Shown here: positions 5,595 through 20,621 of the stretch, piece by piece | Position numbering within the stretch: the first letter of the stretch is position 1 | Layout of the letters: every line of letters begins with the position of its first letter | Origin: Deltaproteobacteria bacterium | GTDB lineage: Bacteria; Chloroflexota; Dehalococcoidia; Dehalococcoidales; BS750m-G39 | Direction of reading: 5' to 3' | DNA length: 64,000 nt | Assembly (NCBI GenBank): GCA_030603275.1 | Contig: JAUVYB010000001.1 | Span: forward strand, 83,832 to 147,831 | Notes under the pieces: model-generated | What the model was told of the DNA's origin: nothing | Database searches by the model: none | Seen by the model: only the letters and a program-made list of their open reading frames with translations | Position numbers and translations under genes: made by a program

Positions 5595-6287
5595 TCAACT
5601 AGTTTTCGCCTGTTGAAAAGAATCCAGCACCTTGATAGCATGGAAACCGTCCACGCAATAAGCATCGGCGCCTATTTCCTGAGCATACTCATCAGACACC
5701 GCCGCCCCCCCGATGAGAACCTTGACCCTATCCCTTAAGCCGCTGTCCTTCAGAGCTTCGATAACCACCCCCATCTCAGTCATGGTAGTGGTAAGCAGCG
5801 CCGAGAGCCCCAGGTAATCGGGGCTTTCTTTTTTAACAAAATCAACAATCTTTTCCGTAGGCACATCAGTGCCCAGGTCGTTTACCTCGTAGCCCGCCCC
5901 TCTGAGCAGGATGGCGACGATATTCTTGCCGATGTCATGGATATCCCCCTGCACCGTGGCGATGGCGAATTTCCCCTTGGTCTCGACATTGGCCGCTTCC
6001 AGAATCGGCTTGAGAATTTCCATCGCCTCGCCTACCGCCTCCGCCGAAGCCAGCATGTCGGGGATAAAATATTCCTTGCTGGAATATTTCTCCCCCACCA
6101 CCGTCATCCCCGCCGTCAGCGCATTGATTATCTCCTCCAGCAAGATCTTTTTCTCCAGCGCCAAGCGGGTCAGCTCCACCACCCCCGGTGTCCCCGATAG
6201 CTTCTCGTCTATACCTTCCTCATCCTGGTTTTTTCTACCCTGGATAACATTCTCTTTAAGCCGGACAATAATATCGCCTTCAGTCAT
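5595..6287 (-). CDS. Corrinoid protein (MtbC/MttC-like, B12-binding)
   Basis: GDIHDIGKNIVAILLRGAGYEVNDLGTDVP (DxHxxG) and LGLSALLTTTM B12-binding motifs. Confidence 0.93.
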   Translation of the reverse strand: MTEGDIIVRLKENVIQGRKNQDEEGIDEKLSGTPGVVELTRLALEKKILLEEIINALTAGMTVVGEKYSSKEYFIPDMLASAEAVGEAMEILKPILEAANVETKGKFAIATVQGDIHDIGKNIVAILLRGAGYEVNDLGTDVPTEKIVDFVKKESPDYLGLSALLTTTMTEMGVVIEALKDSGLRDRVKVLIGGAAVSDEYAQEIGADAYCVDGFHAIKVLDSFQQAKTS

Positions 6288-6289
6288 TA

Positions 6290-7831
6290 CTACTTCCCTT
6301 CTTTATAAACATTCAGCCTGGGCAACAGGCCGGGAATCTCCTGGAATATTTTTGCCGTGGTATCCGGGTCTATATGCTCCACCGGTTTGGCCAGAAGCTC
6401 GTTCATCCTCTGGTAGGCCAGGGCGAAGACGCTGTCACTCTCCCCATCACCTTCAAAGGGATAGGGCGCCGAGATTTCCCCGCTGCGCATCACCTGACGA
6501 ATATAGCGAATATATAGCTTCTGCGGTGTTTCCACCACTTCTCTTATCTGCTTCATGGTTTCCGCCAGCTCCTGCTGATTAATTCGCGGAGTTTTAAGGA
6601 AAAACTTGAGCATCTGGAAGTGGGCATCGTCCAGGACAGCCTGAAGCAGGCAAAAAACAGCGTTGCAGTCGAGGAGGCCATAGGCACAGTGCAGGAACTG
6701 GGGCCCGCTTAAGGTCACCACGATATCAGAAAATAATCTCTCTATAGATGACTGCTGCCCCGGTATCTTGGTATCGCATACACCGGAGGTGGAATAGTTG
6801 GGTATCTTGTAGAACCGCGCCATCTGAACACAGTCAATGTTATACTGGCTGGTTTCCACCGCACCGTAGGAATCGCCCAGGGTATCCATGCGCGCCATTA
6901 CCGGCACGCTGCCGTACAGCAACGGCGTCCCCTTATTTACCAGTTGGCCCAGGGTTATGCCGGCCAGAACCTCGGCATTTATCTGGGCCATAATGCCCGC
7001 CTCCTTGATAGGAGCCGTTGTCCCCGCCTGCGGGGATGAGGAAACTGCGGTGGGCAGTCCCCTACGGCAGATCTCAATAAAGGCATCGGTGGTATCCTCA
7101 ACGAACTGAAGCGGGCTCTTGACCAGACAGGTAATAAAGGAAATGATGGGATTCTCCTGTAATGCCTCTTTCCCCCCGGCTATCAGCTCGGCCATTCTCA
7201 CCACATTATCCAGCTGCTCCAGCTTGGTCAGCCCCGACATAAAATGCTTGGTGGTGTTATTCAGCGAGGCAAAGAACTTGTTGACGTCCTTATTATCCTC
7301 GGTAATATCTGCGTCCTGAATGTTTACGGTTCGGATGTAGCCGTCCAGTGTCTCCAGGTGCTCGCATACATGTGCCGACTGGCAGAGGTCGGCCACGGTG
7401 GCACGCCGGGGGTGAAACTCCGGCACCTTAATCTCAATACTACGGTCAGATTTCTTGACATAGGCGGGAAAATCTACATCCAGCCAGATATTTGTCTCCG
7501 AGCCGGAGATAAAGTAGACCCTCGGCTCGTCGCCTTTCATTATAAGGGCATTATCCGGGTTTCTAGCGCCCAGTTTGACCGTCTTGGGAGCGCTATCAAG
7601 GGCCTCAATAACCAGTTTTTCCGGTATCTTTATATTCCAGCAGGGATTGTCACCGGAAGAAGTAGTGGTAACCTCAGCACCATTACTGTGAAATATTTCG
7701 GCCGCTTTCTTACTAAAGCAAATCAGGCCGGGGTCAAGGAGAATCTGCAGGGAAGCCCGGTGAATTTGCCGGATCTGCTCATCGGTAATTCTTTCATAGG
7801 GATTAGGAACTAATATTCCTTCTCTGGGCAA
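6290..7831 (-). CDS. Trimethylamine methyltransferase (MttB) superfamily protein, no in-frame UAG
   Basis: MttB-family sequence (ANRF/NKFFASLNNTTKHFMSG, GTPLLYGSVPVMARMDTLG); paired with corrinoid protein gene. Confidence 0.88.
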   Translation of the reverse strand: MPREGILVPNPYERITDEQIRQIHRASLQILLDPGLICFSKKAAEIFHSNGAEVTTTSSGDNPCWNIKIPEKLVIEALDSAPKTVKLGARNPDNALIMKGDEPRVYFISGSETNIWLDVDFPAYVKKSDRSIEIKVPEFHPRRATVADLCQSAHVCEHLETLDGYIRTVNIQDADITEDNKDVNKFFASLNNTTKHFMSGLTKLEQLDNVVRMAELIAGGKEALQENPIISFITCLVKSPLQFVEDTTDAFIEICRRGLPTAVSSSPQAGTTAPIKEAGIMAQINAEVLAGITLGQLVNKGTPLLYGSVPVMARMDTLGDSYGAVETSQYNIDCVQMARFYKIPNYSTSGVCDTKIPGQQSSIERLFSDIVVTLSGPQFLHCAYGLLDCNAVFCLLQAVLDDAHFQMLKFFLKTPRINQQELAETMKQIREVVETPQKLYIRYIRQVMRSGEISAPYPFEGDGESDSVFALAYQRMNELLAKPVEHIDPDTTAKIFQEIPGLLPRLNVYKEGK

Positions 7832-7889
7832 TGTATTCCTCCTCCTGGATTGCCAGCCTGGTAGGCAGGATATTCTGCTGTATCGCTAG

Positions 7890-8573
7890 CTAGGTGGAAG
7901 TTAAAGACTCTATCACCGCCAGCGCCTGAAAACCGTCGGAACCATAGCCATCGGCACCTATACTCTTAGCATACTCCTCCGAGACCGGCGCCCCGCCGAT
8001 AACAACCTTGACCTTATCCCTGAGGCCGCTCTCCTCCAGTGCCTGGATAGTGTCCCTCATGTTAACCATGGTGCTGGTGAGCAGCGCCGACAGCCCCAGG
8101 AATTGGGGGTTCTCTTCCCTCACCGCATTCACGATGCTCTGTGGCTCCATGTCATTTCCCAGATCCTTGACGGTGTAGCCAGCGCCACGGAGTAATATCA
8201 TCACTATATTCTTGCCGATATCGTGGAGGTCTCCTTTTACCGTGGCCAGTAGCACCTTGCCCTTAGGCTTGATGCCGCTCCGGGCTAGGTAAGGCCCCAG
8301 TATTTCCATAGCCACCCCCACCGCCTCGGCTGAAGCCAGCATATCGGGGATGTAGTATTCCTTCTGCTCAAATTTCTGCCCCACCAGGTTCATGGCCTCG
8401 GTCAGCCCTTTATTAATTATATCCCGGACATCCAGACGCTTAGCCAGAGCTTTCTCGATAAGCTCGGTCACTCCGGGCCGGCCTACCAGACCTTCGTCCA
8501 GACCCTCGTCATCCTGGGTCACCCTCCCCTGGATAACGTTCTCCCGAATTAAGCTTATTATATCCTCAGTCAT
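7890..8573 (-). CDS. Corrinoid protein (MtbC/MttC-like), second copy
   Basis: VKGDLHDIGKNIVMILLRGAGYTVKDLGNDM, LGLSALLTSTM. Confidence 0.93.
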   Translation of the reverse strand: MTEDIISLIRENVIQGRVTQDDEGLDEGLVGRPGVTELIEKALAKRLDVRDIINKGLTEAMNLVGQKFEQKEYYIPDMLASAEAVGVAMEILGPYLARSGIKPKGKVLLATVKGDLHDIGKNIVMILLRGAGYTVKDLGNDMEPQSIVNAVREENPQFLGLSALLTSTMVNMRDTIQALEESGLRDKVKVVIGGAPVSEEYAKSIGADGYGSDGFQALAVIESLTST

Positions 8574-8601
8574 TATATATTCCCCTAATTACCAGTCTAT
8601 C

Positions 8602-10041
8602 TCAATCCACGATGCCTTTTATCTCTGAGAGTATATCTTGTCTTACTGCGGTGGGCAACTGGTATTTATGCTCCGCGATAAGCCGCTTCACTATTTCACC
8701 CGCTGTCTGCCAGGTAGCTTTACCCCCCCTGGCCTCCCACTTCTCCCGGCTGTTCCGGTCGCTTAAAGAAGGCTGGTAATGCTCGCGACGCATAAAGCGT
8801 CTGGTATGCTTGGCGGCGACGAAATTACCCCCCGGCCCCACCTCCTTGATGAGGTCAAAGGCAAGGGTATCATCGTTGACCTTAATACCGTCAACCGCCC
8901 TCATAACCATGCCCAGTATCTCGTTATCAATAACGAACTTCTCGTAACACGCCGTCAGGGCAAAATCCATCATCCCGGCGGCATCGTGGATAAAATTGGC
9001 GCCGGCCAGGGCGCAGAGGAGATTACTTATCGCCGACTCATAGCCGCTCTGGGCATCCAGCACTTTAGAATCGGTCATACCGCCGGTAGCGTAGAAGGGA
9101 AGATGATAAAACTGCGCCATCTGGGCACCGGCCGCGTTTAACATCCCCATCTCCACCGAACCGGCCAGATACTTAAGGTCTCTGAGGTCGGTGTTGGTCG
9201 CCACCGAGCCGAATATAACCGGTGTCCCCGGCTTAACTATCTGGGTGAGCATAACCCCCATTAGCGAGTCCGCCGTCTGAATCACCAGGTTACCGGCAAG
9301 CGTTACCGGCGAGGTCGCCCCGCACAATGGCTCAGCCGGACATACCAGAGGGATACCCCTCTTAGCAATCTCAATTACCAGGTCACCGTAATTGGCGTCC
9401 ATCTTAAGGGGGCTTATACTGCAGGCTATCATGGAAATGAGGGGGCGCTTGAGCAGTTTTTCGGCGGAACCAGCCGCAATCTCCGCCATCCGTAGCACCT
9501 GTTTAATCCCGTCCAGGGTATAAACCCCTCCCATGATGTGCTTGGTGGTATTGTCCAAACCGGCAAAGAATCGATTTGCATCAATCTGCTCTATTGGAAG
9601 CTCATTGGGATAGGTGGGCAGCATAAAAAGATGGATATTATCCAGGCGGTTAACCAGCCTGGCGATGCGCTTCAGGTCTTCCAGGGTAGCCGGCCGCGTC
9701 TGCTTGCTAGCCGGCTCATAGATATAGAGGGCGGTTCCCCCCGTCCCGGTATAGACCCGGTTTCCGCCCAGGAGCACGTCATGCTTCTCTTCCTGACCGC
9801 AGAGCCTGACCTCGGGCGGCGCCGTCCCTATCAGCTCCATGGCTTTCGCCTGAGGCAGGCGCACCCGCCGCTCCTCCCTATCCACCCGGGCTCCAGCCTT
9901 TTCAAAGAGCTGAAGGGCTTTCTCCGAGTTTACCTCAAACCCTACCTCCTCAACCACCGCCATTACCGTCTGGTCTATCTTGGCTATGGACTCTTCAGTT
10001 AGAGGCTGGTAACTACCACCGGCTAATCCTTTACGAATCAT
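8602..10041 (-). CDS. Trimethylamine methyltransferase (MttB) superfamily protein, second copy, no in-frame UAG
   Basis: FFAGLDNTTKHIMGG, GTPVIFGSVATNTDLRDLKYLAGSVEMGMLNAAGAQMAQFY typical of MttB family. Confidence 0.9.
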   Translation of the reverse strand: MIRKGLAGGSYQPLTEESIAKIDQTVMAVVEEVGFEVNSEKALQLFEKAGARVDREERRVRLPQAKAMELIGTAPPEVRLCGQEEKHDVLLGGNRVYTGTGGTALYIYEPASKQTRPATLEDLKRIARLVNRLDNIHLFMLPTYPNELPIEQIDANRFFAGLDNTTKHIMGGVYTLDGIKQVLRMAEIAAGSAEKLLKRPLISMIACSISPLKMDANYGDLVIEIAKRGIPLVCPAEPLCGATSPVTLAGNLVIQTADSLMGVMLTQIVKPGTPVIFGSVATNTDLRDLKYLAGSVEMGMLNAAGAQMAQFYHLPFYATGGMTDSKVLDAQSGYESAISNLLCALAGANFIHDAAGMMDFALTACYEKFVIDNEILGMVMRAVDGIKVNDDTLAFDLIKEVGPGGNFVAAKHTRRFMRREHYQPSLSDRNSREKWEARGGKATWQTAGEIVKRLIAEHKYQLPTAVRQDILSEIKGIVD

Positions 10042-10050
10042 AACTGGATT

Positions 10051-10749
10051 CTATCTTCTACCTACACAATCACGTTTTTCGCAGGTCGGGCAAGGGTTAT
10101 AGCTCTCCACCTTATCGGCAGGACCAATACCAATAATACCCGATATCGACTTCTGCGGAATCATCAAGCAGCCATCGGTTAAACGAACACCGGCAGTATC
10201 GCTACCCATCGCCCGGAAGACCATCCTCTGCTGGCTAACTCTCCAATCGCAATAGCCGGGGCTGAAACGCTGGCTTATACCCAGCCCATCAGCCTCCGCC
10301 TCCTTGCCCACAATATCCTGCACAACGTGGGCTAAGGTCTCAGCCGCATCCGAGCCTATGGCATCCAGCACTGCGGCCTGGACCATAAGCCCATCTCCAG
10401 ACAGTTGATGGACTACTTCCCCCAGACGACCACCTACGGTAAGCACGAACACGGCAACCTTCTGGCATCGCTCCAGCAACCGGGCAATAACATTACTCCG
10501 GAAGATAACCGAACCCTCGATAAATACCCGCGAACCCCGCACCGAATTGATATCCCTGATAACATACGAATATGACGGTTCAACAAGGTGGCAAATGTTA
10601 TCGGCATACTCCCTTACCAGAGACTCAACCCGCGCCGACGGCACACCATCGGTGCCGTAGCCCATACGGTTAAATACCTGTTCGGTATCAATATCAAACT
10701 CGTTTCTTATAGACGACGTAGACATATTTCGCTCCCTTTGCTTTATCAA
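10051..10749 (-). CDS. Vitamin B12-dependent methionine synthase activation-domain-like protein
   Basis: RFSPGYCDWRVSQQRMVF and IGIGPADKVESYNPCPTCEKRDC resemble MetH activation-domain (SAM-binding) proteins; head of methyltransferase operon. Confidence 0.75.
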   Translation of the reverse strand: MIKQRERNMSTSSIRNEFDIDTEQVFNRMGYGTDGVPSARVESLVREYADNICHLVEPSYSYVIRDINSVRGSRVFIEGSVIFRSNVIARLLERCQKVAVFVLTVGGRLGEVVHQLSGDGLMVQAAVLDAIGSDAAETLAHVVQDIVGKEAEADGLGISQRFSPGYCDWRVSQQRMVFRAMGSDTAGVRLTDGCLMIPQKSISGIIGIGPADKVESYNPCPTCEKRDCVGRR

Positions 10750-11176: not shown

Positions 11177-11205
11177 TTGACAACACGGGAGGAATGCGAT
11201 ATCAT
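11177..11205 (+). promoter_or_regulatory. Sigma-70-type promoter, TTGACA-N17-TATCAT
   Basis: TTGACA 11177-11182, 17-nt spacer, TATCAT 11200-11205; upstream of DUF134-led cluster. Confidence 0.7.
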
Positions 11206-11287: not shown

Positions 11288-11764
11288 ATGGGAAGACAAC
11301 CGCGGTGGCGCCGGGTAGACTTTCTACCACAGGTAACCTACTTCAAGCCTGCTGGCGTGCCCCTGGCTCATCTTAAGGAAGTGCGGCTCTCTATTGAGGA
11401 GGCTGAGGCGATCCGGCTGAAGGATATAGAGGGTCTTGATCAGAAGGACTGCGCTCAGAAGATGAGGGTGTCACGCCCTACCTTTGCCCGCATACTGCTC
11501 TCAGTACGGCAGAAGATGGCTGATGCCCTGCTCAACGGAAAGGCGATGAGAATCGAAGGCGGGAACTATGAGATGGCAGTGCGCCGCTTCCGCTGCAGCA
11601 ACGGTCACGAGTGGGAAGTCCCTTTCGAAGTAATGATAAAGGAGCCGCCGGAGCTTTGCCCTACCTGTAGTACGCCAGACATCATGGTACTCCGGCCCTG
11701 GAGGCCCGGCTGGGGTATGGGAGGCCGGGGCAGGCGGGTAGGGGGTAAGCCGTGGCAGCAGTAG
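11288..11764 (+). CDS. DUF134 (UPF0251) family DNA-binding protein with C-terminal zinc-ribbon-like extension
   Basis: SIEEAEAIRLKDIEGLDQKDCAQKMRVSRPTFARIL HTH of DUF134; C-terminal FRCSNGHEW...CPTC. Confidence 0.85.
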   Translation: MGRQPRWRRVDFLPQVTYFKPAGVPLAHLKEVRLSIEEAEAIRLKDIEGLDQKDCAQKMRVSRPTFARILLSVRQKMADALLNGKAMRIEGGNYEMAVRRFRCSNGHEWEVPFEVMIKEPPELCPTCSTPDIMVLRPWRPGWGMGGRGRRVGGKPWQQ

Positions 11765-12492
11765 CAAGTATGAAAATCCTTGAGGATTTGATATCAGCGC
11801 TGAACACGGAGGCGAAGGTGAGGGACATTCGCATGGGTCTCTTTCACACCGCGGTTTTGACTCGTAACTGCGGGCTGGCGGCGACACTCCCCCGTGATGC
11901 CCTCCAGCAGGAACAGCCGTCGGTCAGAGAGCCGGGGCACCTCGTTGACAAAGAAGCGCTGGCACTTGCCAGGATGGCCTATTCAGAGAGCTTACTTCAA
12001 GCAGCCATCGGCATGGCAGCGATTAACTCGCTGCTTGAGGTTAATGATGGGGAGTGCCTGGAACTCAATGCCGGCGACCTCATTGCCGAGAAGGGAAAGG
12101 GTAAGAAAGTGGCCATTGTGGGGCATTTTCCCTTTATTCCCAGGCTGCGGGAGATAGTAAAGGAACTTTGGGTGATTGAGAAAAACCAGCGTGAGGGCGA
12201 CTTCCCCGAGGTTGAGGCAGAAAATCTTATCCCTCAGGCCGACGTTGTCGGCATAACCGGCACTGCTTTTACCAACCACAGTATTGAGGGGCTGCTCAGG
12301 CTATGCCGCCCTGAAGCCTATGTGGTCATACTCGGGGACACCGCTCCCCTCTCCCCAGTTCTCTTTGACTATGGTATTGATGCCATATCCGGCACCAAGG
12401 TGATCGACCCGGAGCTGGCTCTGCGCTTCGTGAGCCAGGGAGCAACCTATCGGCAGATTAAAGGAATTCGCAAGCTAACTATGGTGAACTAG
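11752..12492 (+). CDS. DUF364/DUF4213 family protein (putative heavy-metal chelation domain); start may be ATG 11770
   Basis: AAINSLL...GKKVAIVGHFPFIPRLRE...LIPQADVVGITGTAFTNHSIEGLL typical of DUF4213-DUF364 proteins. Confidence 0.78.
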   Translation: MAAVASMKILEDLISALNTEAKVRDIRMGLFHTAVLTRNCGLAATLPRDALQQEQPSVREPGHLVDKEALALARMAYSESLLQAAIGMAAINSLLEVNDGECLELNAGDLIAEKGKGKKVAIVGHFPFIPRLREIVKELWVIEKNQREGDFPEVEAENLIPQADVVGITGTAFTNHSIEGLLRLCRPEAYVVILGDTAPLSPVLFDYGIDAISGTKVIDPELALRFVSQGATYRQIKGIRKLTMVN

Positions 12493-12512
12493 CTGCGGAA
12501 GGAGGTAAAAAT

Positions 12513-12857
12513 ATGTATAACAGATCAGGACGAGGCAGAGGTTTTGGACGAGGTTCGGGCGGTGGTATGGGCTTCGGTTTCCGGGGCGCCTCCCCTCCCT
12601 GGCCATATGTAGGCCTGGGTAGAGGAGGCTTACCCAGATGCGGTTACTTCTTTAGTGGCGCCGGTGCGTCGGCACCGTGGCCATATCAACCACCAATCTT
12701 CCCCCCGGGAATGCCAGCTACTCCTGGGTATGAGCCATATGCGCCCGAGATGACCAAAGATGAGGAACTCAACTACCTGAAGGACCAAGCGGAGGCAATA
12801 AAGGGTCAACTGGGGGAGATTGATTCCAGGATGCATGACCTGGAAGCTGAAAAGTAA
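12513..12857 (+). CDS. DUF5320-like protein, Gly/Arg/Phe-rich with C-terminal coiled coil
   Basis: RGRGFGRGSGGGMGFGFRG N-terminus; MTKDEELNYLKDQAEAIKGQLGEIDSRMHDLEAE C-terminus. Confidence 0.65.
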   Translation: MYNRSGRGRGFGRGSGGGMGFGFRGASPPWPYVGLGRGGLPRCGYFFSGAGASAPWPYQPPIFPPGMPATPGYEPYAPEMTKDEELNYLKDQAEAIKGQLGEIDSRMHDLEAEK

Positions 12858-12892
12858 AACACAGATAACGCATGAAGTAAAGGAGGTGCATT

Positions 12893-13177
12893 ATGCCAGG
12901 ATTTGATGGTACTGGCCCTCGTGGGATGGGCCCAATGACTGGAGGCGGCAGAGGTTTCTGCGCTATCCCACTACGCTCAGGGCGGCCGGCATACGCCGGG
13001 ACGCGATTCTACAGGCCATACACCCCTCCCTACCAAGGGGCGTATAGTTTCGGGCCCTTTGCTCCGGGAATGACCCGTGAGCAGGAGTTAGAATCCTTAA
13101 AAAACGAGTCCCAAGCCCTGAGGGATGGGCTTAAGGAACTGGAAACAAGAATAGCGCAACTATCAGCGAGCAAATGA
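12893..13177 (+). CDS. DUF5320 family protein
   Basis: MPGFDGTGPRGMGPMTGGGRGFC N-terminal signature and MTREQELESLKNESQALRDGLKELETRIAQL tail. Confidence 0.75.
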   Translation: MPGFDGTGPRGMGPMTGGGRGFCAIPLRSGRPAYAGTRFYRPYTPPYQGAYSFGPFAPGMTREQELESLKNESQALRDGLKELETRIAQLSASK

Positions 13178-13191
13178 AATAAGGAGGAGAT

Positions 13192-13818
13192 ATGAAGATT
13201 GCGATTACAGCTACCGGCTCCACCCTTGATGCTGAGGTAGACCCGCGGTTCGGGCGGTGCCAGTATTTTATCATTGCCGACCCGCAAACGATGGAGTTCG
13301 AGGCGGTGGATAACTCCAGTGCCATGGCGGCAGGCGGAGCCGGTATCGCGGCTGCCCAGATGATTGCCGATAAAGGTATAGAGGCAGTCCTAACCGGCAA
13401 CTGTGGCCCCAATGCTCATCAGGTGCTATCCGCTGCCGGGATCCAGGTGATAACCGGCGTTTCCGGGAAGATAAAGGATGCCGTCGAAGGCTACCGGGCC
13501 GGTAAGTTCAAGACGAGCTCCCAGCCCAATGTGCCCGACCACTTTGGTATGGGTGCTGACCCCGGTATGGGTGCTGACCCCGGTATGGGCGGAGGTATGG
13601 GTAGAGGTATGGGCGGTGGCATGGGTAGAGGTATGGGCGGTGGCATGGGCGGAGGTATGGGCATGGGGTCTGGCATGACCCCACCTGTAAGCCAAGCTCC
13701 CCAGCAACAAAACCCGGAGCAGGAGCTAGAGATGCTCAAAGCCCATTCACAGGCACTGGCTCAACAGCTAACCGATATCCAACGGCAGATTGACGAGCTA
13801 AAGAAAAAGAAAAAATAG
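13192..13818 (+). CDS. NifX/NifB-family (dinitrogenase FeMo-cofactor/ORP-like) protein fused to GMG repeats and a DUF5320-like coiled-coil tail
   Basis: MKIAITATGSTLDAEVDPRFGRCQYFIIADPQTMEFEAVDN...GNCGPNA; then GMGRGMGGGMG repeats; EQELEMLKAHSQALAQQLTDIQRQIDELKKK. Confidence 0.85.
   Translation: MKIAITATGSTLDAEVDPRFGRCQYFIIADPQTMEFEAVDNSSAMAAGGAGIAAAQMIADKGIEAVLTGNCGPNAHQVLSAAGIQVITGVSGKIKDAVEGYRAGKFKTSSQPNVPDHFGMGADPGMGADPGMGGGMGRGMGGGMGRGMGGGMGGGMGMGSGMTPPVSQAPQQQNPEQELEMLKAHSQALAQQLTDIQRQIDELKKKKK
13544..13672 (+). repeat. In-frame short tandem repeat (GGTATGGGY GGW/AGA units) encoding GMG(R/G)
   Basis: Reiterated ggtatgggcggaggtatgggtagaggtatgggc seen directly. Confidence 0.85.
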
Positions 13819-13841
13819 AGAAAAATACCGGAGGTGTAACC

Positions 13842-14063
13842 ATGCCTAGAGGAGACGGAACCGGACCTCCCGGGGGCGGCGGCCAAGGTACAGGAAGAGG
13901 TTCAGGCAGGGGTGCCGGCAGGATGAGAGGCACCCGACCCGGAGCAGGTCCGGGCGGGGACTGCGTATGCCCCAACTGCGGAGCGAGAGCCCCGCACCGA
14001 GTAGGGACACCCTGCTACAATATTAGTTGCCCCAAGTGCGGGGCAAAGATGGCCAGAGGCTAG
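13842..14063 (+). CDS. Small Gly-rich zinc-ribbon protein
   Basis: MPRGDGTGPPGGGG...CVCPNCGARAPHRVGTPCYNISCPKCGAKMARG; RBS; stop abuts next ATG. Confidence 0.7.
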   Translation: MPRGDGTGPPGGGGQGTGRGSGRGAGRMRGTRPGAGPGGDCVCPNCGARAPHRVGTPCYNISCPKCGAKMARG

Positions 14064-14906
14064 ATGATTATATCTGTTGCCAGCGGTAAAGGCGGGACGG
14101 GCAAGACGCTGGTATCCACCAGCCTTGCCCTTTCCCTAAAAGATAGCCATAAAGTCATGCTTCTAGACTGCGACGTCGAGGAGCCAAATGCCCATGTCTT
14201 TCTAAAGCCAGCGATTGCCAGCAGTGAAGCGGTTTCCATCCCGGTGCCAAAGGTAGATGAAACCAAGTGTACTCACTGCGGTGAGTGCGCCGAGGTCTGC
14301 GCCTATAACGCCATTGCAGTGACCAAGCAAAAGGTGCTCATCTTCCCCGAGCTCTGCCACGGCTGTGGCGCCTGTAGCTATCTCTGCCCGGAGAAGGCTA
14401 TATCAGAAGAGCCCCGGGAAATAGGCGTGGTGGAGTGGGGGCAAGCGGATGGCCTGGAGTTTGTTCACGGCAAGCTCACCGTCGGCGAGGCAATGGCGCC
14501 ACCGATTATCAGGAAGGTGAGAGAGCATTTCAATAGCGATGGCGTAGTTATCGTTGATATCCCGCCGGGAACGTCCTGCCCTGTGGTGGAGGCAATCAAG
14601 GATAGCGACTTCTGTCTCCTGGTAACCGAGCCGACGCCATTCGGGCTTAACGACCTTGTCCTTGCCGTGGAAACGGTGAGGGAGCTCAACATACCCTGTG
14701 GTATTGTCCTCAACCGCGCCGGTGTCGGCGATGCCGGGGTAGAAGAATACTGTCGCAAAGAGAACATACCCATTTTGCTCACCATACCCCTGGATACCGA
14801 GATTGCCCGCCTGTACTCTAATGGAGTGCCACTGGTTGAGGGTATGCCGGAGTGGAAGGATAGCTTCCGTAAGCTTTTTAATAGGATTAAAGGAAATAGT
14901 AGATGA
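14064..14906 (+). CDS. MinD-superfamily P-loop ATPase with inserted 2x[4Fe-4S] ferredoxin domain
   Basis: SGKGGTGKTLVS deviant Walker A; CTHCGECAEVC and CHGCGACSYLCP. Confidence 0.92.
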   Translation: MIISVASGKGGTGKTLVSTSLALSLKDSHKVMLLDCDVEEPNAHVFLKPAIASSEAVSIPVPKVDETKCTHCGECAEVCAYNAIAVTKQKVLIFPELCHGCGACSYLCPEKAISEEPREIGVVEWGQADGLEFVHGKLTVGEAMAPPIIRKVREHFNSDGVVIVDIPPGTSCPVVEAIKDSDFCLLVTEPTPFGLNDLVLAVETVRELNIPCGIVLNRAGVGDAGVEEYCRKENIPILLTIPLDTEIARLYSNGVPLVEGMPEWKDSFRKLFNRIKGNSR

Positions 14907-15766
14907 AAGAAATCGTAGTCTTAAGCGGTAAAGGGGGCACCGGCAAGACCAGCGTTGTTGGCTCGCTGGCGGCTCTAGCAGAAAGAAAAGTGCTTGCCGA
15001 CTGCGATGTGGATGCTGCTGACCTCCACCTTCTGCTCAGCCCTTCGGTGAAACAGGAAACCGAGTTCTGGAGCGGGCAGGTAGCCCAAATTGACCCGGAC
15101 AAATGCACCCAGTGCGGCCTGTGCCAGGACCTGTGCCGCTTCGATGCCATCAGGGATTTTGAAGTTGACCCCGTCTCCTGTGAAGGCTGCGGCTTTTGCT
15201 TCCATATCTGCCCGGATGAAGCGATAACCGTGAAAGAAAATCTCTCGGGCCACTGGTTTATCTCTGATACCAAGTATGGCCCTCTGGTGCATGCCAGGCT
15301 GGGAATCGCCCAGGAGAACTCAGGGAAACTGGTAGCCCAGGTGAGGCAGCAGGCAAGAAAAGTTGCCGAGGAGCGGAATCTAGGCTATATTATAAGCGAC
15401 GGCCCGCCGGGTATCGGCTGCCCGGTAATCTCATCCCTGTCCGGAACCAGCCTGGCGCTACTGGTCACTGAACCCACACTTTCGGGAATGCACGACCTGG
15501 ACAGAGTCCTGGACGTGTGCCGGCATTTTGACATCCCGGCCCTGGTATGTATCAATAAGTACGATATTAATGAGGAAAACAGTCGCCAGATTGAAAGTCA
15601 CTGCCTCAGCCAGGGAATAGAGGTGGTCGGGAGGATTCCCTTTGATAATGTGGTCACCGAATCAATCGTCAAAGGGATACCGGTAGTCGAATATTCCAGC
15701 GGCATTGTCACCCGGGAGATAGAAAAAATGTGGCAAAATATCTCGGAACGGTTAGCCAGGAACTAA
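14903..15766 (+). CDS. MinD-superfamily P-loop ATPase with inserted ferredoxin domain, second copy
   Basis: LSGKGGTGKTSVVG; CTQCGLCQDLC, CEGCGFCFHICP. Confidence 0.92.
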   Translation: MKEIVVLSGKGGTGKTSVVGSLAALAERKVLADCDVDAADLHLLLSPSVKQETEFWSGQVAQIDPDKCTQCGLCQDLCRFDAIRDFEVDPVSCEGCGFCFHICPDEAITVKENLSGHWFISDTKYGPLVHARLGIAQENSGKLVAQVRQQARKVAEERNLGYIISDGPPGIGCPVISSLSGTSLALLVTEPTLSGMHDLDRVLDVCRHFDIPALVCINKYDINEENSRQIESHCLSQGIEVVGRIPFDNVVTESIVKGIPVVEYSSGIVTREIEKMWQNISERLARN

Positions 15767-15796
15767 GGGGGTATAGAAGCCGGAGGGCTTGAGTAG

Positions 15797-16180
15797 ATGG
15801 CTATGGAGAAGCTGGCAAAAGAATTTATGGCGCAAAAGAGGTTCGCCCTGGTTGGCGCCACCAGCAACACCAGCAAGAACGGCTACCGGATATTTAAGAA
15901 CCTGAGCCGCCGCGGCTATGAGGTCTACCCGGTAAATCCGGGTCTTCAGGAACTGGAGGGGGTTGAATGTTATCATAGTCTGGCTGACATTCCGGTCAGG
16001 GTTGATGTGGTTGACTTTGTGGTGCCGCCCCAGGTGACCGAGGCCATTCTTAAGGAGTGCAAACGACTGGGGCTGGATCGCATATGGCTCCAACCCGGCT
16101 CCGAAAGCGAGGCGGCCATCGCCTTCTGCCATGAGAACAAGCTAAAGGTGGTTCATGACATCTGCGTGATGTCGAACTAA
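15797..16180 (+). CDS. CoA-binding domain protein (YccU/YneT-like)
   Basis: FALVGATSNTSKNGYRIFKNLSRRGYEVYPVNPG...IWLQPGSESE. Confidence 0.85.
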   Translation: MAMEKLAKEFMAQKRFALVGATSNTSKNGYRIFKNLSRRGYEVYPVNPGLQELEGVECYHSLADIPVRVDVVDFVVPPQVTEAILKECKRLGLDRIWLQPGSESEAAIAFCHENKLKVVHDICVMSN

Positions 16181-16202
16181 ACCAGTAGATTGGGAGGTTA
16201 CT

Positions 16203-16541
16203 ATGAGATATGCAGTACCGGTAAGCGGCGGGGTTTTATCGCCGCACTTTGGTCATTGTGAACATTTTGCCCTGATAGACGTTGACGAAGATAAAAAGGA
16301 AATAACCAGCAAAGAGCTTGTCCCTCCACCGGGGCACGAACCGGGCGTGCTTCCGCAATGGCTGGCTGAGCAGGGCGTCTCCTTTGTGATTGCCGGCGGC
16401 ATGGGCTCCCGTGCCCAGAGTCTTTTCCAGCAAAACAACATTGGGGTTATCATCGGTACCATGGAAAACGACCCCGAGAAGGCGGTGCTGAGCTACCTTG
16501 ATGGCAAACTGGCTACCGGGGATAACATTTGTGACCACTAG
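16203..16541 (+). CDS. NifX/NifB-family (dinitrogenase FeMo-cofactor/ORP-like) protein
   Basis: YAVPVSGGVLSPHFGHCEHFALIDVDEDKKEI...LPQWLAEQGVSFVIAGGMGSRA. Confidence 0.88.
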   Translation: MRYAVPVSGGVLSPHFGHCEHFALIDVDEDKKEITSKELVPPPGHEPGVLPQWLAEQGVSFVIAGGMGSRAQSLFQQNNIGVIIGTMENDPEKAVLSYLDGKLATGDNICDH

Positions 16542-16565
16542 GTCGCTAGACGGAGGACAGATTTT

Positions 16566-17570
16566 ATGTTAAATGAGGATCAGATAAAGCAGAGCCTCGA
16601 GGCTGTACTGGTGCCTGATGTCAGGCGCAGTATAGTCGGGCTGAATCTCGTCCGCGAGATTACTGTCTCTGATGGCAAGGTCAAGGTCAACCTGGCCTCA
16701 GCGGCACTGAGTGAAAGTGCCCAGGACTGGGTCAGTACCAAAGCCAGGGAAGTTATTGGAAAGCTACCTGAAGTCAAAGAGGTAACGGTAGAATTCAGCG
16801 AGGCAAAACCATCCGAGGTGAACAAAATCAGTTATATTATCGCCGTTATGAGCGGTAAGGGTGGCGTGGGCAAGTCACTGGTGGCCGGCCTCAGCGCCGT
16901 TTCCCTTAAGCGGCAGGGCTACGAGGTCGGCATTCTGGATGCCGATATAACCGGCCCCAGCATACCCAAGATGTTTGGCATCAATGACCGGCCCACCGGC
17001 AGCGCTAGCGGCATTCTACCGGTACTGTCCAGATCAGGTATTGAGGTAATGTCCATTAATCTTCTCCTGCCCAGCGAGGATGACGCCGTCATCTGGCGGG
17101 GTCCCCTGATTGCCAACACTATCAAGCAGTTCGGTGAAGACGTGCTCTGGGGCAAGCTGGACTATCTGATCATAGACCTGCCTCCGGGTACTGCGGACGC
17201 TCCGCTCACGGTGATGCAGTCCTTCCCGATTTCGGGGGTAATTATTGTTTTTACGCCGCAGGACCTGGTCGAGATGATAGTTAAAAAGGCAGTAAACATG
17301 ACTCAGAAGATGGGGAAACGAATTCTGGGCGTAGTGGAGAACATGAGCTACCTCTATGTGCCGGAAATAGACAAGAAGATTGAAATCTTTGGTAAAAGCC
17401 GGGCGGAACAGATGGCCAGCACCGCCGGTGCACCGTTACTGGGGCAGTTGCCGATAGACCCGGAACTGGCCAAGCTCTGTGACGAGGGCGGCATAGAACG
17501 CTATAACGGTGAGATTATGACTACCCTGGGTAAGGCCATAAATCAGGCTATATCAGCCAAGGTCAAATGA
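16566..17570 (+). CDS. Mrp/NBP35-family Fe-S cluster carrier ATPase with N-terminal DUF59/MIP18-type domain
   Basis: MSGKGGVGKSLVAGLSAVSLKRQGYEVGILDADITGPSIPKMFG; LIIDLPPGTADAPLT. Confidence 0.92.
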   Translation: MLNEDQIKQSLEAVLVPDVRRSIVGLNLVREITVSDGKVKVNLASAALSESAQDWVSTKAREVIGKLPEVKEVTVEFSEAKPSEVNKISYIIAVMSGKGGVGKSLVAGLSAVSLKRQGYEVGILDADITGPSIPKMFGINDRPTGSASGILPVLSRSGIEVMSINLLLPSEDDAVIWRGPLIANTIKQFGEDVLWGKLDYLIIDLPPGTADAPLTVMQSFPISGVIIVFTPQDLVEMIVKKAVNMTQKMGKRILGVVENMSYLYVPEIDKKIEIFGKSRAEQMASTAGAPLLGQLPIDPELAKLCDEGGIERYNGEIMTTLGKAINQAISAKVK

Positions 17571-17586
17571 GATAGGAGCGAAGGCA

Positions 17587-18045
17587 ATGTCTTCATCATG
17601 GGAGCAGTTTGAGGAACTGGTTAAGCAGGAAATGAGAAAGGTATACTCAGAAGCCGCCATCGAGCACGGCATGAACCCGAGAAACCTGGGAGAACTGGAG
17701 GATGCCGATGGCTTTGCTAAAGTGATCGGCCCCTGCGGTGATACCATGGAGATATGGCTCAAGGTAAAGGACGGTACTATTGCCCAGGCCACCTTTTTAA
17801 CTGACGGCTGTGGAACGTCCATCGCCTCAGGCAGCATGACTACCGAGATGGCCAAGGGGAAAAGCATTGCTGAAGCCCGGAAGATAAGCCGGGAGAATGT
17901 CCTGAATGCCCTGGGAGGGCTACCCCAGGAAAGCGAACACTGCGCCCTTCTGGCTGCCAATACGCTAAAAGAAGCTATAAAAGACTATTTGGCAATGAAG
18001 AAAGAACCGTGGAAGAAAGCCTACCACAAACATATTGGCCACTAG
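17587..18045 (+). CDS. Iron-sulfur cluster assembly scaffold (NifU_N/IscU-like)
   Basis: Three conserved Cys contexts: GPCGDTMEIWL, DGCGTSIASGSMTTE, SEHCALLAANTL. Confidence 0.9.
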   Translation: MSSSWEQFEELVKQEMRKVYSEAAIEHGMNPRNLGELEDADGFAKVIGPCGDTMEIWLKVKDGTIAQATFLTDGCGTSIASGSMTTEMAKGKSIAEARKISRENVLNALGGLPQESEHCALLAANTLKEAIKDYLAMKKEPWKKAYHKHIGH

Positions 18046-18057
18046 AGGTGCAGCGCA

Positions 18058-18828
18058 GTGGCTAATTCTATTATCTATGGCCCGGTTCCATCCTGGAGGC
18101 TGGGCAGGTCACTAGGTATCGATCTCCTGTCTACCAAGGGAAAGACATGCTCATTTGATTGTGTCTATTGCCAGTTGGGGATGACGGTTCACCCCGAGGT
18201 GGAACGTAAAGAGTTTGTCAGCCTGGATAGGCTTGCCCGAGAGTTGAAAGCAGTAGAAGGTATTGCCGCCGATTATGCTACCTTCTCCGGGATGGGTGAG
18301 CCGAGCTTGGCATCCAACCTTGGCGAGGCAATAAAGCTGGTGAAATCAACCCTAAAACTACCGGCGGCGGTTCTTACTAATTCTTCCTTAATACCCAGAG
18401 AAGACGTACGCCACGAGCTTGCCCTGGCTGATGTGGTTGTAGCCAAGGTTGATGCGCCGACTGAGGAGATTTTTCGTAAAATCAACCGTCCTATCGGAAG
18501 TCAAACACTGGCTGGAATCCTGAAAGCGCTTCAACTCTTCAGAGAAGAGTACCATGGGAAGCTCGCTCTCCAGATGATGTTCGTTGAGGCAAACAAGGAC
18601 TACGCTGCGGGCATGGCAGAAATAGCCGGGCAGCTTTCTCCCGATGAAGTACAAATAAATACGCCTCTGCGTCCCTGTGGCGTGAGTCCATTGTCACCTG
18701 AGGATTTAGCTGCTATAGAGCGGGAATTCAGCAATTTTCAGAATGTGTTTACGGTATATGGGGCATTAAAGCCGGAGGTTATGCCGTTTGATTTAGCGGA
18801 AACACTACGGCGCCGCCCCAAGCTCTAG
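18058..18828 (+). CDS. Radical SAM protein, COG0731-like (GTG start)
   Basis: IIYGPVPSWRLGRSLGIDLLSTKGKTCSFDCVYCQLG (CxxxCxxC). Confidence 0.88.
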   Translation: MANSIIYGPVPSWRLGRSLGIDLLSTKGKTCSFDCVYCQLGMTVHPEVERKEFVSLDRLARELKAVEGIAADYATFSGMGEPSLASNLGEAIKLVKSTLKLPAAVLTNSSLIPREDVRHELALADVVVAKVDAPTEEIFRKINRPIGSQTLAGILKALQLFREEYHGKLALQMMFVEANKDYAAGMAEIAGQLSPDEVQINTPLRPCGVSPLSPEDLAAIEREFSNFQNVFTVYGALKPEVMPFDLAETLRRRPKL

Positions 18829-18966
18829 CAGCCTTGTATGGCCGGGGCATATTGCTCATATTAGCAGACCCCTGGCAGATATCAGGGATTAGACTGTTTA
18901 TTGGACTAATAACGCGGAATATTGGGAAGTGTATTTAATGTTGAAATATCAGGCGCTTAGGCCGGG

Positions 18967-19317
18967 TTGAGGAGTATGAACACCAGCACTAAGGATAAAA
19001 TAAGAAGAATCTATAAAGCTCTGCCCAGGATGAATTGCGGGCGCTGCGGATTCGAGAGTTGCGGGAAGTTTGCCCGGGCTGTCGCCGAGGGGAGAGCTTC
19101 GCCTTTCGGTTGCTGGCAGGACCCATGGGCAGGTTACACCATAAGTGAAATTGTCGGACTGAAGGTACCGGCATACCGTTACGGATTGCAGCCTGCTTCC
19201 CTTCCCAAGCCGGGGATTGGTGCTTCACCAGGGGCCCTGGGACAGGAGATACGGAGGCTATCCAAGCACGTGGATGATATCCTGGTCAGGATTGAAAAAC
19301 TGAGAGCAGGGGTGTAA
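18967..19317 (+). CDS. Small protein with [4Fe-4S] domain (Fe4S family)
   Basis: LPRMNCGRCGFESCGKFARAVAEGRASPFGC; start may be the ATG at 18976. Confidence 0.7.
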   Translation: MRSMNTSTKDKIRRIYKALPRMNCGRCGFESCGKFARAVAEGRASPFGCWQDPWAGYTISEIVGLKVPAYRYGLQPASLPKPGIGASPGALGQEIRRLSKHVDDILVRIEKLRAGV

Positions 19318-19610
19318 TGGGGCAAGCAAGGGGGAAGCAAATGAGGATTTGCATTATAGGCACTGGTGATGCTGGCGCCACGGCAGCAAACCAAATCCGC
19401 CGCCTGGATGGCGAGGCGCAGATTGACACCTTCAGTCGAAGAGCCGAGCTTGGTATCCCCCCATGCGAGATGCCTCTGGTCATTGGCGGAGATATTGCCA
19501 GCAGAATGCCGCTCGTCAAACTGGTGCAGATTGATGGCTGCCACTCACCCCATGTCCAGGAAGACCATCTGGCGGTGCCAATGCACCGTTTGATAGATAA
19601 GCTAGGCTGA
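19317..19610 (+). pseudogene. Remnant of an FAD/NAD(P)-dependent (CoA-disulfide reductase-like) oxidoreductase, internally deleted
   Basis: Rossmann start MRICIIGTGDAGATAANQIRRLD...PPCEMPLVIGGDIAS, then only ~30 further residues. Confidence 0.55.
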
Positions 19611-19771: not shown

Positions 19772-20129
19772 TGGTGGAGACGGGGGAGAGTCGAACTCCC
19801 CGTCCAAGAGAAGCTGCCCAGAATATACTACAAGCTTAGTCAGCACTTTAATCTCGCCGGGCTAACCTCCGCTGACCGAGTTTAAGCCAGGCCAGTCGAT
19901 ATCTCTTTCACCACCCTTATCAACATCAGGATGGCGGCACCTCAATTTAACGTCGCCCGCTCCCAACCCATTGAGGACAGGTCAGGCTGAGCGCACAACC
20001 TATATTTAACTAGGCTGCGTAAGCGAATTCAGGTTCGCCAATTGTTTTTTTCCGCCGGTTTTATGAGGTTAGCGGCACCTCAGCTTGCAATCCTGTAACC
20101 TACTTCCCCTGTCGAACCCGCGCGTCCCC
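19772..20129 (-). ncRNA. ssrA: tmRNA (tag likely GEPEFAYAA)
   Basis: 5' GGGGACGCGCGGGTTCGACAGG, 3' GGACGGGGAGTTCGACTCTCCCCCGTCTCCACCA; acceptor GGGGACG/CGTCTCC; tag ORF at 20010-20039; next to smpB. Confidence 0.93.
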
Positions 20130-20156: not shown

Positions 20157-20621
20157 CTACCTCCTCCCCACATTCCGCCCCTTAATAGCCCGATCAATCT
20201 CCCTCTCCGTCTCACGGCGGGCTATAGCTTGCCGCTTATCATAAAGCTTTTTACCCCTGGCCAAGGCCACCTCGACCTTTGCCAAGCTACCCTTAATATA
20301 TAGCCTTAGGGGAAGCAAAGTAAAGCCCCTCTCCTGCACCTTGCCGGTAAGGCTGGCAATCTGCTTGCGATGAAGCAGCAGCTTTCGGGGTCGGGTTGGC
20401 TGGTGACTCATATAGCTGCCGGCGTCATAGCGGGCTATGTGAGCATTCAGCAGCCACAATTCCCCGGCCTCAGGTTTTACATAGGCATCAGCCAGGCTTA
20501 CCCTGCCGGCCCTGATGGATTTTATCTCGGTGCCGGTAAGGACGATGCCGGCTTCCATGCTATCGCCGATATGGTAATTATGATATGCCTTCCGGTTAGT
20601 AGCTGATGTCTTTATGGTCAC
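20157..20621 (-). CDS. smpB: SsrA-binding protein
   Basis: NRKAYHNYHIGDSMEAGIVLTGTEIKSIRAGRVSLADAYV; GKKLYDKRQAIARRETEREI. Confidence 0.96.
   Translation of the reverse strand: MTIKTSATNRKAYHNYHIGDSMEAGIVLTGTEIKSIRAGRVSLADAYVKPEAGELWLLNAHIARYDAGSYMSHQPTRPRKLLLHRKQIASLTGKVQERGFTLLPLRLYIKGSLAKVEVALARGKKLYDKRQAIARRETEREIDRAIKGRNVGRR

Follow-up and report, generated by a model that had tools for sequence, protein, structure and literature searches.

The question raised by this locus is what a compact set of genes, in which ferredoxin-bearing MinD-type ATPases stand beside NifX-, Mrp- and IscU-type proteins, does in a strict anaerobe, and how it relates to the ORP (orange protein) locus of Desulfovibrio. 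The set lies in the window, by which is meant the whole stretch analysed: 64,000 nucleotides of contig JAUVYB010000001.1 (positions 83,832 to 147,831, forward strand) in assembly GCA_030603275.1, a genome of the Dehalococcoidales (1.52 Mb, 50 contigs, 93% complete). It comprises 13 plus-strand open reading frames (ORFs) at 11288-18828, which in the ORF map are separated by gaps of at most 35 bp and in places overlap. Judged by sequence, this operon appears to be an extended ORP-type system, because its gene set is co-conserved, because one of its NifX proteins (NifXb) and its Mrp together correspond to a split MrpORP, and because its other NifX protein (NifXa) is closest to the ORP of D. gigas. 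The likeness to the Desulfovibrio locus that a first-pass annotation had proposed is thus borne out by the paired ferredoxin-MinD (Fd-MinD) ATPases, the split MrpORP and the nearness of NifXa to structure 2wfb. The operon probably serves to assemble, hold and pass on metal-sulfur clusters at the expense of ATP.

Co-conservation was followed in 61 genomes of the order, in 101 loci around Fd-MinD1 and in the best 80 loci from 84,980 species genomes. Within the order, an orthologue of Fd-MinD1 is clear in 20 of the 61 genomes, at 21 places of which one holds a fragment; in nearly all, Fd-MinD2 comes directly after it. The best 80 loci belong to Dehalococcoidia, Aminicenantes, Omnitrophota, WOR-3, Zixibacteria, Spirochaetes, Firmicutes, Nitrospirota, Desulfobacterota, Armatimonadetes, Bathyarchaeota, Altiarchaeota and Thermoplasmatales. 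A Fd-MinD pair with NifX, often joined by Mrp, IscU or a COG0731-like radical SAM protein, recurs in Dehalococcoidia, Omnitrophota, Aminicenantes, Nitrospirota, Desulfobacterota, Firmicutes and archaea, and one contig of Bathyarchaeota (L124) holds the compact order Mrp-NifX-NifX-IscU-MinD1-MinD2-rSAM. BLAST clustering of the genes lying up to 9 kb from Fd-MinD1 in the 101 loci, a sample in which Dehalococcoidia are over-represented, placed the NifX family in 95 loci, DUF5320 in 49, IscU in 40, DUF134 in 34, the COG0731-like radical SAM family in 31, the zinc ribbon in 28, a flavin adenine dinucleotide (FAD)-dependent oxidoreductase in 13, DUF364 and a sigma54 enhancer-binding protein (EBP) in 12 each, and the CoA-binding protein in 7. 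These components replaced the counts of an iterated hidden Markov model (HMM) neighbourhood map, which drifted for low-complexity and ferredoxin-like families. Locus counts are slightly inflated because a few loci belong to one genome under two names (L040 and L055, from two collections, appear to be one locus). Among the 61 relatives, genomes with Fd-MinD1 are enriched in NifX (20/20 versus 13/41, p=1e-7), DUF134 (17/20 versus 11/41, p=2e-5) and low-scoring NifU (14/20 versus 10/41, p=9e-4) but not in housekeeping nifU (p=0.17), all values being uncorrected for relatedness. Moreover, NifX, Mrp, low-scoring NifU or Fd-MinD1 is found no more than 10 kb from 30 of 36 DUF134 genes, compared with 3 of 39 housekeeping nifU genes. 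Scattering of the genes was not seen: the set is co-conserved in relatives and in other phyla, and the earlier claim of one co-inherited, anaerobe-type operon stands on the recurrence of the Fd-MinD/NifX set and the clustering of DUF134. Of the scaffold, radical SAM and DUF364 proteins that it named as additions to the ORP theme, the first two recur with the core across phyla; DUF364 is a restricted accessory.

In alignments, eight ferredoxin cysteines are invariant in both Fd-MinD1 and Fd-MinD2, and so is a ninth, 7 residues past the Walker B/switch II Asp (99/99 in Fd-MinD1, 96/96 in Fd-MinD2; Cys172 and Cys173, respectively, in the window proteins); the window Mrp has Asp at this position. 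The invariant switch-II cysteine of both ATPases is new. The predicted structure of Fd-MinD1 (predicted local distance difference test, pLDDT, 93.4) comes nearest in fold to MinD, ApbC, ATPase-type HypB and Cfd1, whereas NifH and BchL rank lower; a sequence search returned no solved structure of a full-length relative. A C-terminal membrane-targeting helix was considered for both ATPases, in which the hydrophobic moment is 0.69 against 0.48 and 0.47 after shuffling. However, no such claim is made, because the Mrp control is nearly as amphipathic (0.64 against 0.43).

The model for MrpORP (NF041136) calls for a P-loop and a Di-Nase domain fused in one protein scoring above 450 bits, whereas the window has two adjacent genes that both fall under this cut-off, NifXb matching positions 265-365 at 127 bits and Mrp positions 2-245 at 312 bits. 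NifXb has the motifs SPHFGHCE and CDH, with Ser for the first Cys of CXHFGHCE, as well as the proline-rich stretch PPPGHEPG; HFGHCE, a proline-rich stretch and CDH are typical of MrpORP (Pardoux et al., PMC6345978). Together, NifXb and Mrp are thus best read as a split MrpORP. The window Mrp, the only full-length Mrp found in its genome by family search (as are all statements here about the whole genome), lacks the CXXC motif (local sequence ENMSYLYVPEIDKKIEIFG) that relatives in other phyla retain. Loss of CXXC as a trait of the Fd-MinD operon was rejected, and a lineage trait is indicated, because the motif is also absent from the Mrps examined in the order, including those outside Fd-MinD loci. 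This order-wide loss is new.

NifXa, whose best PDB match is D. gigas ORP (2wfb, 77 bits), consists of a NifX domain, a disordered (GMGR)n linker and, in the predicted structure, a 33-residue helix with pLDDT of about 90. The linker segment is Gly/Met-rich with few aromatics and an isoelectric point (pI) of 8.6; the tail matches Pfam DUF5320 (35.9 bits), and the C-terminal helix resembles the helices of the operon's DUF5320 proteins. The same layout occurs in Chloroflexota, WOR-3, Aminicenantes, Armatimonadetes and Desulfobacterota, and this conserved NifX-(GMGR)n-helix protein with its DUF5320-like helix is new. Gly-rich cationic segments of pI 10.8-12 are also present in the DUF134 protein (C-terminus, pI 12), both DUF5320 proteins and the zinc ribbon. 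Gene fusions join NifXa to the zinc ribbon in one locus (L058) and to NifXb in three (L085, L098, L100), which suggests that these are physical partners.

The operon's IscU paralogue has all of the cluster ligands (Cys37, Asp39, Cys63, His105 and Cys106 in E. coli numbering). The Lys of its LPPVK motif is replaced by Ser, and by Ser, Asn or His in the Dehalococcoidia cluster copies, whereas housekeeping copies have Lys. Further copies without it stand in loci of Nitrospirota, Aminicenantes, Omnitrophota and Desulfobulbaceae, and it is kept in loci of Firmicutes, Bathyarchaeota and some Syntrophaceae. In the tree, housekeeping NifU is split from most cluster IscU copies with branch support of 98/99; since Lys-bearing cluster copies group with the housekeeping ones, IscU was probably recruited into ORP-type loci more than once. 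A paralogue found in many ORP-type loci, with intact ligands and the LPPVK Lys mostly lost, is new. A Fisher test linked the Lys-less IscU to CXXC loss (p=0.04), but this is confounded by phylogeny and was not used. The remark that a cysteine desulfurase is missing is right for the operon (none at 11288-18828) but not for the genome, in which nifS lies beside a second nifU on another contig (G000:C9:71790-73347) and a SufBD protein is encoded elsewhere; a desulfurase-free operon is for this reason not special.

Families were assigned by Pfam and NCBIfam profile searches of the window proteins (Table 1). Nearly all of the gene families named beforehand were matched above the Pfam cut-off within 11288-18828, the first DUF5320-like protein falling just under it, and the two Nitro_FeMo-Co/NifX proteins reached 89 and 75 bits. 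The run had been described as about 14 genes, which is upheld for 13 but not at the 3' end: the conserved operon stops at 18828, because the next gene, for an FeS-domain protein, is set off by 138 bp and has matches in only 2 of the 101 loci (iterated-HMM neighbourhood map), and because the ORF after it is a remnant. This remnant aligns to an intact FAD oxidoreductase of 441 residues (L064) at residues 1-77 and 404-440 only, a middle part of more than 300 residues being gone; as the genome is metagenome-assembled, an assembly fault is possible. Longer copies of the oxidoreductase lie near several ORP-type loci. Downstream, the operon is bounded by a transfer-messenger RNA gene (19772-20129, minus strand) and the adjoining smpB (20157-20621, minus strand). 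The promoter-like element before the first gene is a consensus match only, in a scanned stretch with 10 sigma70-like matches against 6.7 expected.

Table 1. Coordinates of the operon, its promoter-like element and the two ORFs that follow it, as positions in the window.
Feature	Positions	Strand	Basis or remark
Promoter-like TTGACA-17-TATCAT	11177..11205	+	11/12 consensus positions; 82 bp 5' of first gene
DUF134 helix-turn-helix protein, C-terminal zinc-ribbon-like part, cationic Gly-rich end	11288..11764	+	Pfam 84 bits
DUF4213/DUF364 protein, putative heavy-metal chelation	11752..12492	+	Pfam 64/135 bits
DUF5320-like protein, cationic Gly/Arg-rich N-terminus and C-terminal helix	12513..12857	+	26.0 bits, under cut-off 27
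DUF5320 protein	12893..13177	+	Pfam 58.1 bits
NifXa (ORP/IssA-type), NifX domain, (GMGR)n linker and helix	13192..13818	+	Nitro_FeMo-Co/NifX match
Small zinc ribbon, cationic Gly/Arg-rich N-terminus	13842..14063	+	
Fd-MinD1 ATPase (Orp3/Orp4-like), 8 ferredoxin Cys and Cys172	14064..14906	+	CbiA/MinD with 2x4Fe-4S insert
Fd-MinD2 ATPase, 8 ferredoxin Cys and Cys173	14903..15766	+	CbiA/MinD with 2x4Fe-4S insert
CoA-binding-2 protein, accessory	15797..16180	+	CoA_binding_2, 123 bits
NifXb, putative Di-Nase half of MrpORP (SPHFGHCE ... CDH)	16203..16541	+	NF041136, 127 bits
Mrp/ApbC-type ATPase, N-terminal FeS_assembly_P domain, without CXXC	16566..17570	+	FeS_assembly_P 39, NUBPL/Mrp 295 bits
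IscU/NifU_N paralogue	17587..18045	+	NifU_N 117 bits
COG0731-like radical SAM protein (CSFDCVYC, 'GPVPSWRLG' subtype)	18058..18828	+	radical SAM 50 bits
FeS-domain (PF04060) protein, outside conserved core	18967..19317	+	43 bits
FAD-dependent oxidoreductase deletion remnant	19317..19610	+	N-terminus joined to C-terminus

The radical SAM proteins of these loci have CX3CX2C and 3-7 Cys in complete copies (4 in the window protein). Counts of Cys revealed in them no NifB-type extra residues for K-cluster sites, an identification with NifB was rejected on Cys content, and no named NCBIfam equivalog cut-off was reached. An uncommon or heterometal cofactor, as first supposed, is not supported, as no sequence feature names a metal. 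Heterometal chemistry may be possible, because ORP-type proteins bind a Mo-Cu sulfide cluster (PMC6345978), but nothing in the window demands it. The widely conserved core does not include the DUF364, CoA-binding and FeS genes, which are accessories of restricted occurrence. The DUF364 protein has solved relatives (3l5o, 3npg), and its gene also lies 3' of a DUF134 gene and two IscU-type genes in L151 (DUF134-IscU-IscU-DUF364); the CoA-binding gene adjoins a NifXb-like gene in L143. The literature searched yielded no paper linking DUF134, DUF364 or DUF5320 to the ORP-type system. Also recurrent near Fd-MinD1, though outside the window gene set, are an MBL-fold hydrolase (28 of the 101 loci), the Fur family (25), an FmdB-type ribbon (24), a SAM methyltransferase (21) and a CGGC-type protein (8); here and in the counts above, clusters lacking a window member were named by sequence inspection rather than HMM search. 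On the minus strand at 5595-10749 stand two MttB-family methyltransferases (6290-7831, 8602-10041), two corrinoid-type proteins and a B12-activation-domain protein; the second MttB gene contains a match to Rfam PYLIS_3, the mttB pyrrolysine insertion element (8979-9078), and probably encodes a non-pyrrolysine relative of MttB, because its ORF has no in-frame stop.

Taken as a whole, these data allow a model of how the operon may work, in which catalytic steps, heterodimerisation, metal and target protein are what we infer from gene content, co-conservation, residues, domain layout and the predicted folds of Fd-MinD1 and NifXa. Sulfur and iron would be provided by the housekeeping NifS/NifU/Suf systems or by sulfide, and the dedicated IscU paralogue could nucleate a cluster, which NifXa and NifXb would then hold on their NifX domains. 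NifXa may dock on its DUF5320 partners via C-terminal helices, and an anionic metal-sulfide unit may be screened by cationic Gly/Arg/Met-rich segments, an arrangement already suggested for IssA of Pyrococcus furiosus. Fd-MinD1 and Fd-MinD2 could form an ATP-gated heterodimer, one switch-II Cys per subunit creating an interface site for a metal or cluster, with electrons supplied by the inserted ferredoxins. The CXXC-less Mrp would work through its P-loop and FeS_assembly_P domain, and the DUF134 protein is the probable regulator. A bolder version, which we regard as rather doubtful, makes the ATPase pair a self-reducing, NifH-like heterodimer with the switch-II cysteines as interface cluster site, building a non-standard metal-sulfur cofactor with the dedicated IscU and NifX carriers for an enzyme of anaerobes in both prokaryotic domains. 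Several observations weigh against cluster assembly and hand-over as the task of the operon. The core is patchy (20/61 relatives), and is thus not required for general Fe-S assembly; the low-scoring IscU type is found in just 14 of the 20 genomes with the Fd-MinD pair. DUF134-NifX-Mrp units exist without this pair (L144, with IscU, L146, L148 and L149), so that the operon is modular. In addition, the window Mrp is without CXXC, the transferable-cluster site of MrpORP, and the operon contains no dedicated target enzyme.

The NifX domain and Gly/Arg/Met-rich disordered linker of NifXa, conserved across phyla, could instead belong to an IssA/IssX-like protein of a storage and mobilisation system, in which polymeric, thioferrate-like iron sulfide is enclosed by a cationic Gly-rich tail and the ATPases load or release it. 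The IssA study proposes that the IssA tail binds thioferrate and remarks on a Gly-rich 'IssX' clade (PMC5524996), several more operon proteins have cationic Gly-rich segments, and Fur genes lie near 25 of the 101 loci. However, the NifXa linker closes in a DUF5320-like helix and not in a free aromatic tail, many cluster NifX proteins are tail-less, and two Fd-MinD ATPases, IscU and a radical SAM enzyme would be superfluous for storage, which makes this reading unlikely. A complex for cell division or polar positioning, in which polar MinD-like ATPases carry clusters that sense redox state, is quite improbable, even though such a role has been put forward as a hypothesis for the Desulfovibrio ORP complex (PMC4672049), MrpORP is polar, Orp3/Orp4 have a C-terminal amphipathic helix (PMC6345978), and MinD is among the nearest folds of the Fd-MinD1 model. 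The C-terminal amphipathicity of the Fd-MinD proteins does not exceed that of the Mrp control, and the genes that recur around the ATPases in the 101 loci include no identified division gene. Metal-sulfur handling is favoured over division because the recurrent partners of the ATPases (IscU, NifX, rSAM, zinc ribbons) are metal-sulfur proteins.

IscU, NifX and an ATPase also belong to the assembly of the iron-molybdenum cofactor, and a NifB-like pathway to a large carbide-containing or heterometal cluster, with the radical SAM protein as carbide or cluster-fusion enzyme, would share them. Such a pathway would fit the Mo-Cu sulfide of ORP-type proteins (PMC6345978) and the 31 of 101 loci in which a radical SAM gene of this family lies no further than 9 kb from the ATPases. 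The radical SAM enzyme is, however, absent from most loci, offers only CX3CX2C with few other Cys and reaches no named equivalog cut-off, and the pathway is very improbable. Reductive activation of the neighbouring corrinoid methyltransferases (MttB cluster, 5.6-10.7 kb) is scarcely credible: the MttB, corrinoid and B12-activation genes are adjacent and divergent, and Fd-ATPases could power a low-potential reduction, yet MttB is not among the recurrent neighbours of other loci, and a B12-activation-domain protein is already encoded within the corrinoid cluster.

For cluster assembly on an ORP-type system, the authors of the MrpORP study asked whether it depends on, or runs parallel to, the general ISC/SUF systems (PMC6345978). 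A dedicated IscU paralogue in ORP-type loci of several phyla and an invariant ATPase cysteine make this question testable. The ORP-type system with a Fd-MinD pair appears to be widespread in anaerobes and under-described.

Compared with metal ATPases of the NifH/CooC/Nbp35 type, the Fd-MinD proteins share the deviant Walker A motif GKGGTGK, and their switch-II Cys sits at the offset of NifH Cys132 (Asp125+7). They differ in the inserted 2x4Fe-4S ferredoxin, are without the Mrp CXXC and, judged by motif spacing, have no equivalent of NifH Cys97. The operon paralogue has the NifU_N fold and every cluster ligand of the ISC/NIF scaffold IscU/NifU, but stands on a separate branch (98/99), with a Lys-less LPPVK and without an adjacent desulfurase. 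With IssA, NifXa shares a NifX domain, and its Gly-rich segment may correspond to the cationic Gly-rich tail of IssA, although it has few aromatics and closes in the C-terminal helix; operon partners of this sort do not figure in the part of the IssA study considered (PMC5524996). MrpORP, which binds Fe-S in both domains and passes a cluster to Orp3/Orp4 (PMC6345978), is matched by NifXb in HFGHCE...CDH and PPPGHEPG and by the adjacent Mrp over the rest of the model, but the window divides these between two genes (312 and 127 bits against 450) without CXXC. The D. vulgaris genes lie outside the data set, and the tie to the classical Desulfovibrio locus rests on model, PDB and EBP matches. No window gene was assignable to the [2Fe-2S]-type Orp5, whose sequence was not at hand for comparison. 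A sigma54 EBP, noticed in none of the window ORFs at 1-22000, belongs to the D. vulgaris ORP locus (DVU2106) and likewise lies close to several Desulfobacterota versions (the inspected ones among its 12 loci), including those of Desulfobulbaceae, which also carry IscU. Common to the two systems are a pair of MinD ATPases that both have two [4Fe-4S] motifs, a single-domain NifX/ORP protein (Orp8, to which NifXa adds linker and helix), and Mrp with an MrpORP-type Di-Nase domain. The window, however, holds a single operon with DUF134 in place of the sigma54 EBP and a split, CXXC-less Mrp/Di-Nase, to which IscU, radical SAM, DUF364, DUF5320, zinc ribbon and CoA-binding proteins are added.

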